Positions 59,207 to 64,000 of a stretch of 64,000 nucleotides of DNA are shown piece after piece. The stretch covers positions 2,356,001 through 2,420,000 of the forward strand of contig NZ_CP017718.1 in NCBI RefSeq assembly GCF_001854405.1, read 5' to 3'. A program made the translations under genes and the position numbers. The notes below the pieces were generated by a model. The model was not told the origin of the DNA, searched no databases, and saw only the letters and a list, made by a program, of their open reading frames with translations. How positions within the stretch are numbered: position 1 is the stretch's first letter; each line of letters opens with the position of its first letter. This stretch comes from Hyphomonas sp. Mor2. GTDB taxonomy: Bacteria; Pseudomonadota; Alphaproteobacteria; Caulobacterales; Hyphomonadaceae.

Positions 59207-59902
59207 CTAAAATCCGAGCGCTTCCGCGATCGCCTTCACTTTGGCGTCGCGGTCCGGCATCGCGGTGGCAATCATCTTGTGATAGCGCGCCAGGATTTCC
59301 GGCGAGACCTTGTCCGGACTGCCGGCATCGAAGGGCGGGTTTGGATCATACTCGATGCTGAGCTGGATGAAGCGGGCAAAATCGTCACCGCGAATGCGCG
59401 CCGCCAGGGCGAGCGCAAAGTCGATGCCTGAGGTCACGCCGCCGCCGGTGAAGCGATTGCGATCCTCGACAATGCGCGCGCGCACCGGCACCGCGCCAAA
59501 ATAGGACAGCTGGTCGATGGACGCCCAATGGCAGGCGGCCTGGTAGCCTTTCAGAAGACCGGCTGCGCCGAGCACCAGCGAACCGGTGCAGACGCTGGTC
59601 ACCCAACGGGCTTCCTCGGCCATCTTGCGGATCCAGGTCAGCACGGTCTCATCCTGCATGATCTCCATCGTGCCGAGCCCGCCCGGAATACAGAGAATAT
59701 CGGCTTCTGTGATCTCATCGAATGTGGCGGTGGGCAGAAGCGGAAATCCGGCATCGGTGGGCACCGGATCCTTGTCCTTCCAGACCAGATTCAACGTCAC
59801 ATTGCCAAGCCGTGACAGGACTTGCGCCGGCCCGGTCAGATCGAGCTGGGTGACATTGGGAAATACGAGGAAAGCGACAGATACAGGCGAGCGTTCAGGC
59901 AT
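59207..59902 (-). CDS. DJ-1/PfpI-family protein, isonitrile-hydratase-like
   Basis: A 231-residue DJ-1/PfpI protein. The nucleophile is the cysteine of VTSVCTGSLVLGAAGLLKG, followed by ACHW, as in isonitrile hydratase InhA. IPGGLGTMEIMQDE holds the conserved glutamate-bearing loop. The true start is ATG 59902 with AAGGAG seven bases upstream; the earlier ATG (59908) is part of a helix that can mask it. It follows a ZTP riboswitch, so it is probably made when ZTP/ZMP is high. Substrate unknown. Confidence 0.86.
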   Translation of the reverse strand: MPERSPVSVAFLVFPNVTQLDLTGPAQVLSRLGNVTLNLVWKDKDPVPTDAGFPLLPTATFDEITEADILCIPGGLGTMEIMQDETVLTWIRKMAEEARWVTSVCTGSLVLGAAGLLKGYQAACHWASIDQLSYFGAVPVRARIVEDRNRFTGGGVTSGIDFALALAARIRGDDFARFIQLSIEYDPNPPFDAGSPDKVSPEILARYHKMIATAMPDRDAKVKAIAEALGF

Positions 59903-59926
59903 GGCCATCTCCTTTCAAGAGTGAAT

Positions 59927-60002
59927 GGCCCAGGCGAACGGCTCTGTTGGTCCTATCCGACGCTCCCCGGTGGTGCTCCACCTTATCTCGCCAGTCGCGT
60001 CG
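59927..60002 (-). promoter_or_regulatory. ZTP (pfl) riboswitch controlling the PfpI gene
   Basis: Read leftward. P1: CGACGC (60002-59997) with GCGTCG (59963-59958). The conserved GACTGGCG (59996-59989), then GGTGG-AGCA-CCACC hairpin, GGGGAGCG and the final GCCTGGGC (from 59936) match the class consensus in order. Downstream, GGCCAT (59930-59925) can pair with ATGGCC (59908-59903) around AAGGAG, masking the RBS. Ligand binding to the aptamer would free it: a translational on-switch. All the key conserved blocks are visible. Confidence 0.88.
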
Positions 60003-60011
60003 ATGCCGGAA

Positions 60012-60041
60012 AGATTAGCGCAACGAAAAAGCCGCGTCCAT
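60012..60041 (-). promoter_or_regulatory. candidate promoter for the riboswitch transcript
   Basis: Read leftward: ATGGAC (60041-60036) and TAATCT (60017-60012), with an 18-base spacer. The start site would fall near 60004, just before the aptamer. It overlaps the mtnA stop. Confidence 0.45.
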
Positions 60042-61141
60042 CATGCCACCACCAATTCTGGAAACAGCGCGCCCAGAGCCTGCTCATTGGCATCGCAGAC
60101 ACCGCGTTCGGTGACCAGGCCGGTAATATATTTTCGCGGCGTGACATCGAAGGCATCATTGCGCACCGGCGTCTGGTCCGGCTTGATGCTGACGGCCGTC
60201 ACCTCTCCGGCTGCCGTGCGGCCGTGCAGCAGAGCGACTTCGTCACCGCCGCGTTCCTCAATCGGGATTTCTTTCAGGCCATCCTTCATCTTCCAGTCAA
60301 TCGAGGAAGAGGGCGCGCAGACATAGAACGGGACGTCATTATCATGCGCCGCCAGCGCCTTGAGATAGGTGCCGATCTTGTTGCAGACATCGCCTGTGTG
60401 CGTCGTGCGATCCGTGCCGACAAAGCAGAGATCGACGAGGCCATGCTGCATCAAATGTCCACCGGCATTGTCGACGATCAGCGTGTGCGGGACACCGTGC
60501 TGAGCCAGTTCCCAGGCCGTGAGATGCGCGCCTTGATTTCGCGGCCGTGTTTCGTCGACCCAGACATGCACGTCGATGCCTGCATTATGGGCTTTGTAGA
60601 TGGGCGCAATTGCTGTGCCCCAATCGACGGTGGCAAGCCAACCGGCATTGCAATGGGTGAGAATGTTGACCGGCCCGGCAGTCGTCTTCGCCGTCTGCGC
60701 CGCTTTGACCAGCGCAACACCATGTTCACCGATATTAGAACACACCTCGACATCATCATCGCAAATCCTGGCAGCATGAGCATAGGCAGCGGCGGCTCGT
60801 TCGCTTTCCGGCAAGCCATAAAGCGGTGTCACGACGCGTTCGACGGCCCATTGCAAGTTCACCGCTGTGGGTCGCGCCGCCATCAGCATGTCTGCGGCGT
60901 GCGCCAGCGCGCCATCGCTCGGATCCTGCTTCGCGGCCAGAGCGACCCCATAGGCGCCCGTGGCCCCGATCAAAGGGGCCCCGCGCACCAGCATATCAGC
61001 GATGGCGCGGGTGGCGTCCTCTACGGTTCTCAACGTCTCTATGCGCCATTCATGCGGCAACACGGTCTGGTCGATAATATCCACTGACCAACCATCCGCA
61101 TTCAGCCAGATCGTTCGATATGGGCGTCCATCAACTTTCAT
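60041..61141 (-). CDS. mtnA: S-methyl-5-thioribose-1-phosphate isomerase
   Basis: A 366-residue isomerase of methionine/adenosyl salvage (methylthioribose-1-phosphate to methylthioribulose-1-phosphate). TRAIADMLVRGAPLIGATGAYGVALA and LTHCNAGWLATVDWGTAIAPIYKAH are family motifs with the catalytic Cys (HCNAG). The Asp and later residues in LCFVGTDRTTHTGDVCNKIGTY also fit. AGGTGG precedes ATG 61141; the longer frame from 61333 is not real. It is divergent from an aldolase fusion. Confidence 0.94.
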   Translation of the reverse strand: MKVDGRPYRTIWLNADGWSVDIIDQTVLPHEWRIETLRTVEDATRAIADMLVRGAPLIGATGAYGVALAAKQDPSDGALAHAADMLMAARPTAVNLQWAVERVVTPLYGLPESERAAAAYAHAARICDDDVEVCSNIGEHGVALVKAAQTAKTTAGPVNILTHCNAGWLATVDWGTAIAPIYKAHNAGIDVHVWVDETRPRNQGAHLTAWELAQHGVPHTLIVDNAGGHLMQHGLVDLCFVGTDRTTHTGDVCNKIGTYLKALAAHDNDVPFYVCAPSSSIDWKMKDGLKEIPIEERGGDEVALLHGRTAAGEVTAVSIKPDQTPVRNDAFDVTPRKYITGLVTERGVCDANEQALGALFPELVVA

Positions 61142-61213
61142 ATTGGTTCCACCTGTGTTGCCTGACCAAGGCAATGAGCAAACGCCATGCCGCATGCGCG
61201 TGTGGCGACCACC

Positions 61214-61249
61214 GATCAATGATTGACGTTGATCAGCCCAGCATGTCAA
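61214..61249. promoter_or_regulatory. mtnA/aldolase divergent region: -35 box and inverted repeat
   Basis: The leftward TTGACA (61249-61244) is a good -35. Between it and mtnA lies GATCAA-N9-TTGATC (61214-61234), a possible operator. The remaining 206 bases hold a small TTGCC/GGCAA hairpin but no riboswitch that I recognise. Confidence 0.4.
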
Positions 61250-61347
61250 TTCCGCAGTCGAGCGCGGGAACACGGCGATAAGTGTCGGCGCATGGCCCGT
61301 AATATGCAGACCCAAGATAGGATCTGAGAGCAAGTGAGTGGTGAGTC

Positions 61348-63402
61348 ATGAGAAATCGTTGGTCAGATCAGGACGCCAAGGACATGATTGCGCATTATGG
61401 CGCGCAGGGCGTGAATGAAGATCTGGCGCTGCGGGTCTATACCAGCCGCCTGATCGGCGTTGAGCCTGAACTCGTCATCCATGGCGGCGGCAATACGTCG
61501 GTCAAAACCATCATTCCGGACTTTCTGGGCAAGGAGCGCGAAGTTCTATGCGTCAAAGGCAGCGGCTGGAATCTCGACACGATTGAGCCAGCGGGTCTGC
61601 CGGCGGTGTTGCTCGAACCGATCACGGGCCTGCGAACGTTTGACTCTCTGACTGACGAAGACATGGTCTCGTTCCAGCGCGCCAATCTGCTGGATCCGGC
61701 GTCACCCAACCCCTCGGTCGAGACCCTGCTGCACGCCTTCCTGCCTCACAAATTCGTCGATCATTCGCATGCGACCGCGATTCTGGCGGTTTCCGATCAG
61801 CCCCAAGGAGAGACTCTCTGCCGAGAGATTTTCGGCGATCGCCTCGCCTATCTTCACTATGTCGCGCCTGGCTTTGACCTCTCCAAAGCCACAGCAGCGC
61901 TGTATGACCAAAATCCGGACGTTGAAGGCGTGCTGCTGCACAAGCACGGCCTGTTCACCTTCGGGGAGACCGCCAAACAATCCTATGACCGGATGATTGA
62001 ATTTGTGTCCATGGCGGAAGCCTTCATTGGTGACGCAGCGCCCTTTGCGCCAACCACAAGACCCATGGCGGCGCCGACGGCATCTACCGCGCAAGTCGCG
62101 CCCATCATCCGAGGGGCCTGTTCGACCGATCTGGGCTATGGGCGCCACCATAACATCGTCACGACGTTCAGAACGTCCCAAGCCATTCGGACATTTGTCG
62201 ATGGCGAGCATGTCGCGTCCTATGGCACGCGGGGCGTCGTCACGCCCGATCATGTCATCCGCACCAAGCGTCAGCCACTTGTCACGCCTGCGCCTTTGGC
62301 CAGCGATTTACCCGCCTTCCAGGCAGACGTGACGGCGCTGGCCGCGCAATACCGCACAGACTACCAGGCCTATTTCGACCGCAATAATGACCGCGTCGGC
62401 GGCGATAAACGCATGCTCGACCCGTCCCCCCGCGTGGTTCTGGTCCCAGGTCTCGGGCTGTTCGGGGTCGGCACATCCAAGAAAGCTGCGAACATTGCCG
62501 CTGATCTGGCAGAAATAACCATCGACACCGTGTCCCTGGCCGAACGCGTCGGAACCTTTGAAGCCCTGCCGGAAACCGATCTGTTCGACATGGAATACTG
62601 GTCGCTTGAACAAGCCAAGCTGGGTAAAGGCGTGGCCAAACCCCTGGCCGGGCAGGTCGCCATCGTGACGGGCGGCGGCGGGGCTATTGGCGCAGCGACG
62701 GCAAAGCTCTTTGCCCAAAACGGCGCGGAAATCGCCGTCCTCGATATTGATGCTGACGCTGCAAACACCGTCGCGCGCGAGATAGGCGGTCACGCCCTGG
62801 CCCTGGCCTGCGATGTGACCGACCGTCAGGCCATCGACGCGGCCTTCGCACAGGTCTGTGAAACATTTGGCGGCGTCGACATCCTTGTCTCCAATGCGGG
62901 CGCGGCGTGGCAAGGCGAGATCGGAGCGCTCGATGACGCGGTTCTGCGCAAGAGTTTTGAACTCAACTTCTTTGCCCACCAAAATCTCGCCCAGGCCGCG
63001 GTCAAGATTATGCAGAACCAGAAAACCGGCGGCGCGCTCCTTTTCAATGCTTCCAAACAAGCCATCAATCCTGGCGCGAATTTGGGCGCTTACGGCTTGC
63101 CCAAGGCGGCGACTCTGTTCTTGTCGCGCCAATACGCGCTTGAATATGGCAAGCACGGTATTCGCGCGAATGCCGTCAATGCAGACCGCATCAGGAGCGG
63201 GCTGCTAACCGAAGACATGATCGAAAAGCGCGCCAAGGCGCGTGGCCTGTCAGAAGGGGAATATCTCGCGGGGAACCTGCTGGGGCAGGAAGTTCGCGCA
63301 GGCGATGTAGCCCAGGCGTTTCTGCATCACGCGCTATCGCCGCGCACAACCGGAGACGTCACAACCGTGGATGGCGGGAATATTGCCGCGGCTCTGCGCT
63401 AG
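61348..63402 (+). CDS. class II aldolase / short-chain dehydrogenase fusion
   Basis: A 684-residue two-domain enzyme. The N-terminal half (about 1-400) is a zinc class II aldolase of the RhaD type: HGGGNTSVKT, the HSH of FVDHSHATAIL, and LHKHGLFTFGE supply metal and acid residues. The C-terminal half (about 430-684) is an SDR with TGGGGAIGAATAK and catalytic YGLPK (YxxxK). Such fusions serve L-rhamnose breakdown (cleaving a ketose-1-phosphate to DHAP and an aldehyde, then changing the aldehyde). Next to mtnA, the ketose could instead be methylthioribulose-1-phosphate. Confidence 0.88.
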   Translation: MRNRWSDQDAKDMIAHYGAQGVNEDLALRVYTSRLIGVEPELVIHGGGNTSVKTIIPDFLGKEREVLCVKGSGWNLDTIEPAGLPAVLLEPITGLRTFDSLTDEDMVSFQRANLLDPASPNPSVETLLHAFLPHKFVDHSHATAILAVSDQPQGETLCREIFGDRLAYLHYVAPGFDLSKATAALYDQNPDVEGVLLHKHGLFTFGETAKQSYDRMIEFVSMAEAFIGDAAPFAPTTRPMAAPTASTAQVAPIIRGACSTDLGYGRHHNIVTTFRTSQAIRTFVDGEHVASYGTRGVVTPDHVIRTKRQPLVTPAPLASDLPAFQADVTALAAQYRTDYQAYFDRNNDRVGGDKRMLDPSPRVVLVPGLGLFGVGTSKKAANIAADLAEITIDTVSLAERVGTFEALPETDLFDMEYWSLEQAKLGKGVAKPLAGQVAIVTGGGGAIGAATAKLFAQNGAEIAVLDIDADAANTVAREIGGHALALACDVTDRQAIDAAFAQVCETFGGVDILVSNAGAAWQGEIGALDDAVLRKSFELNFFAHQNLAQAAVKIMQNQKTGGALLFNASKQAINPGANLGAYGLPKAATLFLSRQYALEYGKHGIRANAVNADRIRSGLLTEDMIEKRAKARGLSEGEYLAGNLLGQEVRAGDVAQAFLHHALSPRTTGDVTTVDGGNIAAALR

Positions 63403-63510: not shown

Positions 63511-63636
63511 TCAGCCCTGCTTTGCTTTAAAGCGGGGATCAGTCTTGTTGATGACATAAGTCCGGCCACGACGGCGAACGACCTTGCAGTCACGGTGGCG
63601 CGACTTGAGTGCTTTGATCGAGGATTTCACTTTCAT
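63511..63636 (-). CDS. rpmJ: ribosomal protein bL36, YkgO (zinc-free) type
   Basis: A 41-residue ribosomal protein: [20 protein letters not shown] is followed by [21 protein letters not shown]. It has one cysteine instead of the four zinc ligands of the classic form, as in YkgO. The ATG at 63636 is clear. It stands alone and is divergent from the lytic transglycosylase. The 108 bases between it and the aldolase gene (63403-63510) hold no recognised feature except an AGGGCTCAGCCCT hairpin. Confidence 0.93.
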
Positions 63637-63745
63637 GGCTTTGGCCCAAACGTTAGAACAGTTTTTACGAAAGCGCGGGACATACACAGGTGACCTGATG
63701 GAGTCAATCACGGCTTACAGGCAGTGGCGCAAAGGGGTGCGCAAG

Positions 63746-64000
63746 ATGAGCGAATTTGTCTGGAAAAGACCACTTTACGGTGTGGTTGCCAGTGCGGCCT
63801 TGATGACGGCCTGCGCCGCCTCTCCGCAGACAGCCCCCCCAGATGTCAGCCCGGTTCAGCCCGTCAATGGCGGAAGCACAGGGAATACGCCCGTCTCACT
63901 CGCCCCATTTGATGCGTCCGGACATACGGATATGGACAGCTGGCGCCAGGACTTTGCGGCGCGCGCTGTGGCGGCCGGACGCGATCCGGCGGTTGTCCAT
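63746..64000 (+). CDS. lytic murein transglycosylase, N-terminal part (cut by window edge)
   Basis: The first 85 residues of a predicted lipoprotein, running off the right edge. Signal and lipobox are VASAALMTAC (Cys23). After a Pro/Ser-rich linker comes the start of the MltB/SLT-2-type domain, DMDSWRQDFAARAVAAGRDPAVV. These enzymes cut peptidoglycan glycan strands. The catalytic glutamate is beyond the edge. Confidence 0.72.
   Translation, partial: MSEFVWKRPLYGVVASAALMTACAASPQTAPPDVSPVQPVNGGSTGNTPVSLAPFDASGHTDMDSWRQDFAARAVAAGRDPAVVH

Follow-up and report, generated by a model that had tools for sequence, protein, structure and literature searches.

Riboswitches of the ZTP class sense a signal of purine and folate shortage. 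The main targets described in the accessible part of PMC2864571 are purH, fhs, pfl, glyA and folD. A non-canonical target, moeA, is preceded by a tandem pair of ZTP riboswitches that is predicted to act as an OFF switch (accessible part of PMC9481103). Isocyanide hydratase (ICH), a member of the DJ-1/PfpI superfamily, converts isocyanides to N-formamides with a catalytic cysteine; its presumed purpose is protection from isocyanide natural products (accessible part of PMC10792529). In the 64,000-nucleotide stretch of DNA analysed here (the window), a ZTP-class aptamer stands directly upstream of a gene for an ICH-like protein. A paper on this pairing was not found in the open-access literature by title and start of abstract, and supplementary gene lists may already tabulate it; the available part of PMC9481103 does not mention PfpI/ThiJ, and that of PMC10085676 does not mention PfpI. 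We consider it probable that the locus contains a genuine ZTP-class riboswitch that, upon build-up of ZMP/ZTP, switches on the translation of a DJ-1/PfpI enzyme resembling isocyanide hydratase.

The aptamer is located on the minus strand at 60008-59921, where an Rfam covariance search of the window matched RF01750 (ZMP-ZTP) with 59.1 bits (gathering score 39, E 4.9e-7) over the full length of the model (positions 1-86 of 86). This is the one match in the 3.63-Mb single-contig host genome; a second RF01750 match is absent from it. A chance match as the origin of the signal is ruled out by the score and by the single copy in the genome. The window sequence, one of 30 in our alignment, holds the invariant aptamer core ACUGGCG ... 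GGGGAGCG ... GCCG..CGCCUGGGC. The first-pass annotation had assigned the element to the ZTP (pfl) class from its conserved blocks, read in order, and proposed a covariance search with the Rfam ZTP model; the above-gathering match over the whole model and the preserved core confirm that assignment. The locus resembles RF01750 in sequence and structure along its full length, with a platform at the 3' end of the aptamer. It differs from the main targets described in the accessible part of PMC2864571 in that the sole switch of the host genome precedes a DJ-1/PfpI gene. As an RNA, the switch is typical of an established class; the novelty is its target.

The aptamer begins 33 bases past the mtnA stop (60041) on the minus strand, and its end is separated by 18 nucleotides from the likely pfpI start at 59902. 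A promoter had been proposed ahead of the aptamer, and both elements are present on the minus strand: a -35-like TGGACG (60035-60040), weak on its own, and a -10-like GCTAAT (60014-60019), which would plausibly place the transcript start near 60008. Scored singly against an alphaproteobacterial consensus, the window promoter is not significant (shuffle test, p about 0.13), and the same scan, applied locus by locus, gives p<=0.05 at three of 21 loci of the host genus. Spacing is more regular. GAC and TA lie exactly 21 bases apart in 18 of the 21 genus loci, the window locus included, at nearly fixed distances before the ACTG of the aptamer (40-43 bases for GAC, 19-22 for TA), within search ranges picked post hoc after inspection of the loci; GAC is missing at L009, L010 and L020. 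A C at -39 that stood out in a column count was dropped on recount, since in the window row it is not the C of GAC.

A Shine-Dalgarno sequence, AAGGAG, is read on the minus strand at 59909-59914 and is similar in relatives. The listed open reading frame starts at ATG 59908, which directly touches AAGGAG, while ATG 59902 is spaced from it by six bases. In most genus relatives the position equivalent to 59902 opens the protein with M-P-E or M-P-D. Because of this spacing and of the relatives' starts, ATG 59902 is more likely than ATG 59908 to be the pfpI start codon.

The putative expression platform is a 7-bp helix in which GGCCAUU (59930-59924, which shares bases with the 3' strand of P3 in the aptamer) pairs with GAUGGCC (59909-59903, the last Shine-Dalgarno G and the spacer up to the start codon), both on the minus strand. 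The final pair is U-G, its G being the last G of AAGGAG. A helix of 59930-59925 with 59908-59903 that brackets AAGGAG had been noted before; it is present at that place and touches the ribosome site, but is one pair longer than then described. The isolated helix segment has a predicted energy of -12.7 kcal/mol (z -1.72), matched by nine of 200 dinucleotide shuffles, and on the window sequence alone is modestly above chance. RNAfold of the leader forms the helix instead of full P3. At each of the 21 genus pfpI loci we scored the best helix that the aptamer tail can form with the 34 bases after it: the mean is 16.5, against 11.1 in mononucleotide shuffles, with p<=0.05 at 17 loci (exceptions L008, L010, L017 and L018). 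The paired place and its letters vary by clade: GGCCAU pairs with the spacer AUGGCC here, and GGGCAUG with the start-codon CAUGCCC in the other clade, and counterparts are GGGUAUCA with UGAUGCCU at L020 and GGGCGUG with CAUGCCC at L021. At Sphingomonas-type loci, compared without shuffles in all but the last two rows, the helix varies and in many cases is short. The predicted helix becomes convincing once relatives are compared, and a translational ON switch is likely because comparable helices with different letters recur in them.

On this model, the 3' end of the unliganded aptamer (59930-59924) would pair with the stretch between Shine-Dalgarno sequence and start codon (59909-59903) and block initiation. 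Ligand binding would close P3, which would take up the same GGGC strand and free the ribosome site, so that a build-up of ZMP/ZTP, as in a shortage of 10-formyl-tetrahydrofolate, would turn on pfpI translation. The binding of the ligand, the direction of switching (ON) and the promoter with its transcript start are inferences. Several observations count against the model as a whole: ZTP switches are not all ON switches, as the predicted OFF pair before moeA illustrates (accessible part of PMC9481103); the helix taken alone is modest, is no better than shuffles at four of 21 loci and changes its paired place between clades; and not every PfpI relative has a switch or an intact gene, as detailed below. 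Two other leader arrangements were seen. Six loci (L025, L026, L028, L041, L042 and L043) share a CCGGGCGTTT stretch just past the aptamer that could pair with the core CGCCUGG and form a different platform, and at L080 (2852-2981) the two halves of a ZTP aptamer upstream of pfpI are split by a long hairpin-like insert.

The pfpI gene (59207-59902, minus strand) encodes a 231-residue protein that matches PF01965 (DJ-1_PfpI) with 97.7 bits (cut-off 26.6). Its closest solved relative is the Pseudomonas isocyanide hydratase InhA/ICH (PDB 3NON; E 6.3e-63), with 48% identity over 209 aligned residues. D21, C105 and T106 align with the ICH site of 3NON; C105 corresponds to the cysteine that is catalytic in ICH (accessible part of PMC10792529). 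The earlier description of the target as PfpI/isonitrile-hydratase-like is thus well founded. The Asp and Thr of the ICH site are catalytic residues as well. Here the gene stands under a ZTP-class RNA, in contrast to InhA/ICH, and hydratase activity is predicted. Switch-linked proteins keep the three residues almost without exception (D 56/57, C 57/57, T 56/57), and proteins without a switch do so equally (D 43/43, C 43/43, T 41/43), so that, on these alignments, the triad would not be a marker of ZTP-linked function. In NCBIfam the top match is the choline regulator GbdR, with 70.3 bits against a cut-off of 480. DJ-1 glyoxalase (58.3 against 131.25) and PfpI (51.1 against 139.05) likewise fall short of their curated cut-offs. 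DJ-1 glyoxalase III and PfpI deglycase share the superfamily and the nucleophilic cysteine with our protein.

The switch occurs in 22 of 29 genomes of the host genus (apparently Henriciella, Hyphomonadaceae) and, under stricter filters, was not found in 72 other sampled genomes of the host family. It directly precedes a PfpI gene in 21 of these 22 genomes; in the remaining one (L003, genome G020) it precedes a DSP-PTPase-like gene, and a close PfpI ortholog is absent. No close PfpI ortholog was found in the seven genus genomes without a switch, three of which have a completeness of <=90%: the best identities are 48% (G067), 35% (G087), 30% (G069) and 29% (G003), and three have no match. Because genus genomes that lack the switch also lack a close ortholog, switch and gene behave as a cassette, which within the genus is probably a single inheritance event. 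The genus PfpI clade sits inside Sphingomonas sequences, which suggests transfer from Sphingomonas. At two of the 21 genus loci (L016 and L019) the pfpI copy is not one open frame, a point against our main explanation. An uncultured Hyphomonadaceae genome (L054) has the pfpI gene without a recognised switch.

The proximity of pfpI to mtnA, to which the first-pass annotation had also drawn attention, is true of the host genome, but a meaning for it is not supported, as mtnA lies <=1.5 kb upstream at none of the 19 other genus pfpI loci with at least 1.5 kb of upstream sequence (L014 has only 132 bases). The link was rejected. In the window, 60041-63402 holds mtnA and a divergent 684-residue fusion of class II aldolase and short-chain dehydrogenase upstream of pfpI. 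Judged by eye, the open reading frame at 63584-64000 resembles a gene that stands nearer pfpI in relatives such as L050, and 60041-63402 may therefore be an inserted methionine-salvage-like block. On the downstream side, the neighbours of 80 PfpI loci, called with a rough ORF caller, were clustered; the 25 largest clusters contain no gene that follows pfpI on its strand in Henriciella as well as in Sphingomonas.

Beyond the genus, we took as target the longest frame starting <=260 to 400 bases from the aptamer and named it by similarity to a small panel. A class survey found the switch in 21 of 385 genomes, with 23 matches including the window locus. The other 22 precede GlyA (9), PfpI (4), PurH (3), LysE-type (3) and FolD (2) genes, and L043 is unreadable at a contig end; the PfpI cases (L025, L028, L034 and L040) belong to families f31 (two), f16 and f94. 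In a phylum survey 38 of 398 genomes carried the switch, three matches, all upstream of GlyA, being under the gathering score. Its 36 new loci comprise GlyA (18), PurH (10), PfpI (3, all in family f14), LysE-type (2), FolD (1), PTPase-like (1) and one unclear target. The Sphingomonadaceae-like family f14, that of genome G680, whose PfpI is nearly identical to the PfpI of a named Sphingomonas, has the switch in 21 of 249 genomes. PfpI is the target in 14 of these 21 (three of the 14 being the phylum-survey loci), followed by RpiB (4), FolB (2) and LysE-type (1). Pfam was used to name one RpiB example, one FolB (L185) and two LysE targets (L030 and L036), the other RpiB and FolB genes being named by eye.

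With PfpI taken as about one gene in 1000, assuming one gene per kb with genes uncounted, the binomial chance of 14 in 21 is about 1e-37, a figure that ignores shared descent. PF01965 has one to four matches per genome in 11 genomes. In all, PfpI is the target class behind the switch in five family codes. The survey of PfpI genes behind ZTP switches that had been proposed thus found the pairing to be recurrent: 21 of 22 in the genus, 14 of 21 in f14 and four more in three families. The pairing is real, non-canonical and more than a local curiosity.

A complementary scan of 80 PfpI loci from named genomes, with a covariance model built in this analysis, places a switch right upstream of 37, namely 36 found by the model and the split copy L080. 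All 36 lie right upstream on the strand of the gene; 13 of them are genus loci, several from genomes that had been used to train the model, while 23 and L080 are outside the genus. The other 43 PfpI relatives, close Sphingomonas ones among them, are without a recognisable switch, which counts against our main explanation; by eye, no other riboswitch type was recognised in switch-less leaders, only the split copy at L080 being picked out from the 80. A quick tree was built from 100 PfpI proteins, of which 57 are switch-linked. On it the switch label needs 13 changes, at least five of them forced by well-supported branches, with SH-aLRT support only, several long linked branches, and gains and losses indistinguishable. 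The linked proteins fall into distinct parts of the tree: the Sphingomonas/Henriciella group, two other f14 groups, L177/L182, L040, and L025/L028/L034.

Other uncommon targets were observed. A DSP-PTPase-like gene directly follows the switch in two families (L003 in G020 and L125 in G532; 159 and 156 residues, 64.5% identical) and is another uncommon ZTP target. LysE-type exporter genes follow it in several families (L030, L036, L037, L143, L149 and L194), and their recurrence fits a theme of disposal, without being proof of it. In four of four Sphingomonadaceae-like loci (L178, L179, L180 and L184) the order is switch, rpiB, glyA, and at L185 and L187 the switch lies upstream of folB (dihydroneopterin aldolase).

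These data bear on what the enzyme might do under such control. That the switch originally belonged to another gene and was carried in front of pfpI by a rearrangement of no functional consequence is very unlikely: the genus cassette is probably a single inheritance event and L003 has its switch before another gene, but the same target class recurs in five family codes and at several separate places in the tree, against an estimated background of about one gene in 1000. Almost as improbable, and largely refuted, is that the PfpI protein substitutes for a missing folate enzyme, either the methenyl-THF cyclohydrolase of FolD or 5-formyl-THF cyclo-ligase (5-FCL). Hydration of a methenyl carbon is, by reasoning only, chemically near isocyanide hydration, and both of the genomes, among 58, that show no match to 5-FCL (G071, and G089 with 84% completeness) have switch and pfpI. 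Against this, the FolD family is found in 14 of 14 genomes, with two full-length matches in the host genome, and 5-FCL in 56 of 58, the host included. Somewhat less remote, though still doubtful, is a role in one-carbon supply, in which the enzyme would make formamides that yield formate for 10-formyl-THF or purines during shortage. PurT, which uses formate, is present in the host genome. The N-formamide products of isocyanide hydratases (accessible part of PMC10792529) and the known ZTP targets in formyl-THF supply (accessible part of PMC2864571) would suit this role, but the one-contig host genome has no Fhs match, and among 11 genomes with switch and PfpI four have Fhs and five others PurT over the cut-off, while G129 and G260 have neither. 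As a separate observation, Fhs and PurT alternate in the genus genomes G000, G013, G053, G071, G003 and G069 (one each, never both), and G020 has neither over the cut-off.

Two further readings are of equal and rather low probability. The protein may act generally as a DJ-1 glyoxalase or deglycase, keeping carbonyl damage in check while purine stress upsets the flow of sugar phosphates. The shared superfamily speaks for this, with DJ-1 glyoxalase and PfpI scores that lie far under their cut-offs; the nearest solved family, however, is isocyanide hydratase, and the protein has Asp, as in ICH, at a position where the DJ-1 family has a functional glutamate. Alternatively, the enzyme may defend against foreign isocyanide natural products, as ICH is thought to do (accessible part of PMC10792529), with poisoning of metalloenzymes raising ZMP and the switch reading damage rather than metabolism. 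Here the link from isocyanide to ZMP is a guess, Henriciella and Sphingomonas loci have different neighbours, and the 25 largest clusters contain no common same-strand gene after pfpI. The first-pass annotation had proposed that the target deals with a by-product arising under folate or purine stress, and this is our working hypothesis too. Because the Fhs/PurT, FolD/5-FCL and operon-partner tests do not explain the enzyme, we favour clearance of a reactive compound linked to a stall in purine formylation; confidence in any one substrate is low. The likeliest role, though a tentative one, is hydration, via the nucleophilic cysteine, of an isocyanide or of another electrophilic one-carbon/nitrogen compound like it that appears along with purine-folate stress.

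Clearance of such a compound raises the possibility, which we put forward tentatively, of a second, undescribed arm of the ZMP/ZTP regulon in Alphaproteobacteria. In it, DJ-1 enzymes resembling isocyanide hydratase would clear a reactive by-product of stalled purine formylation, with LysE-type exporters and a small DSP-PTPase-like protein as further members of the arm; that by-product would be the missing physiological substrate, and the arm would be the only ZTP output in most Henriciella genomes. As the target turns up repeatedly across distinct branches of the protein family and accounts for 14 of 21 switches in the Sphingomonadaceae-like family, we assign isocyanide-hydratase-like enzymes to the purine/folate stress response in that family. 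The pairing hints at a natural job for the poorly understood isocyanide-hydratase-like proteins, whose natural role becomes directly testable.
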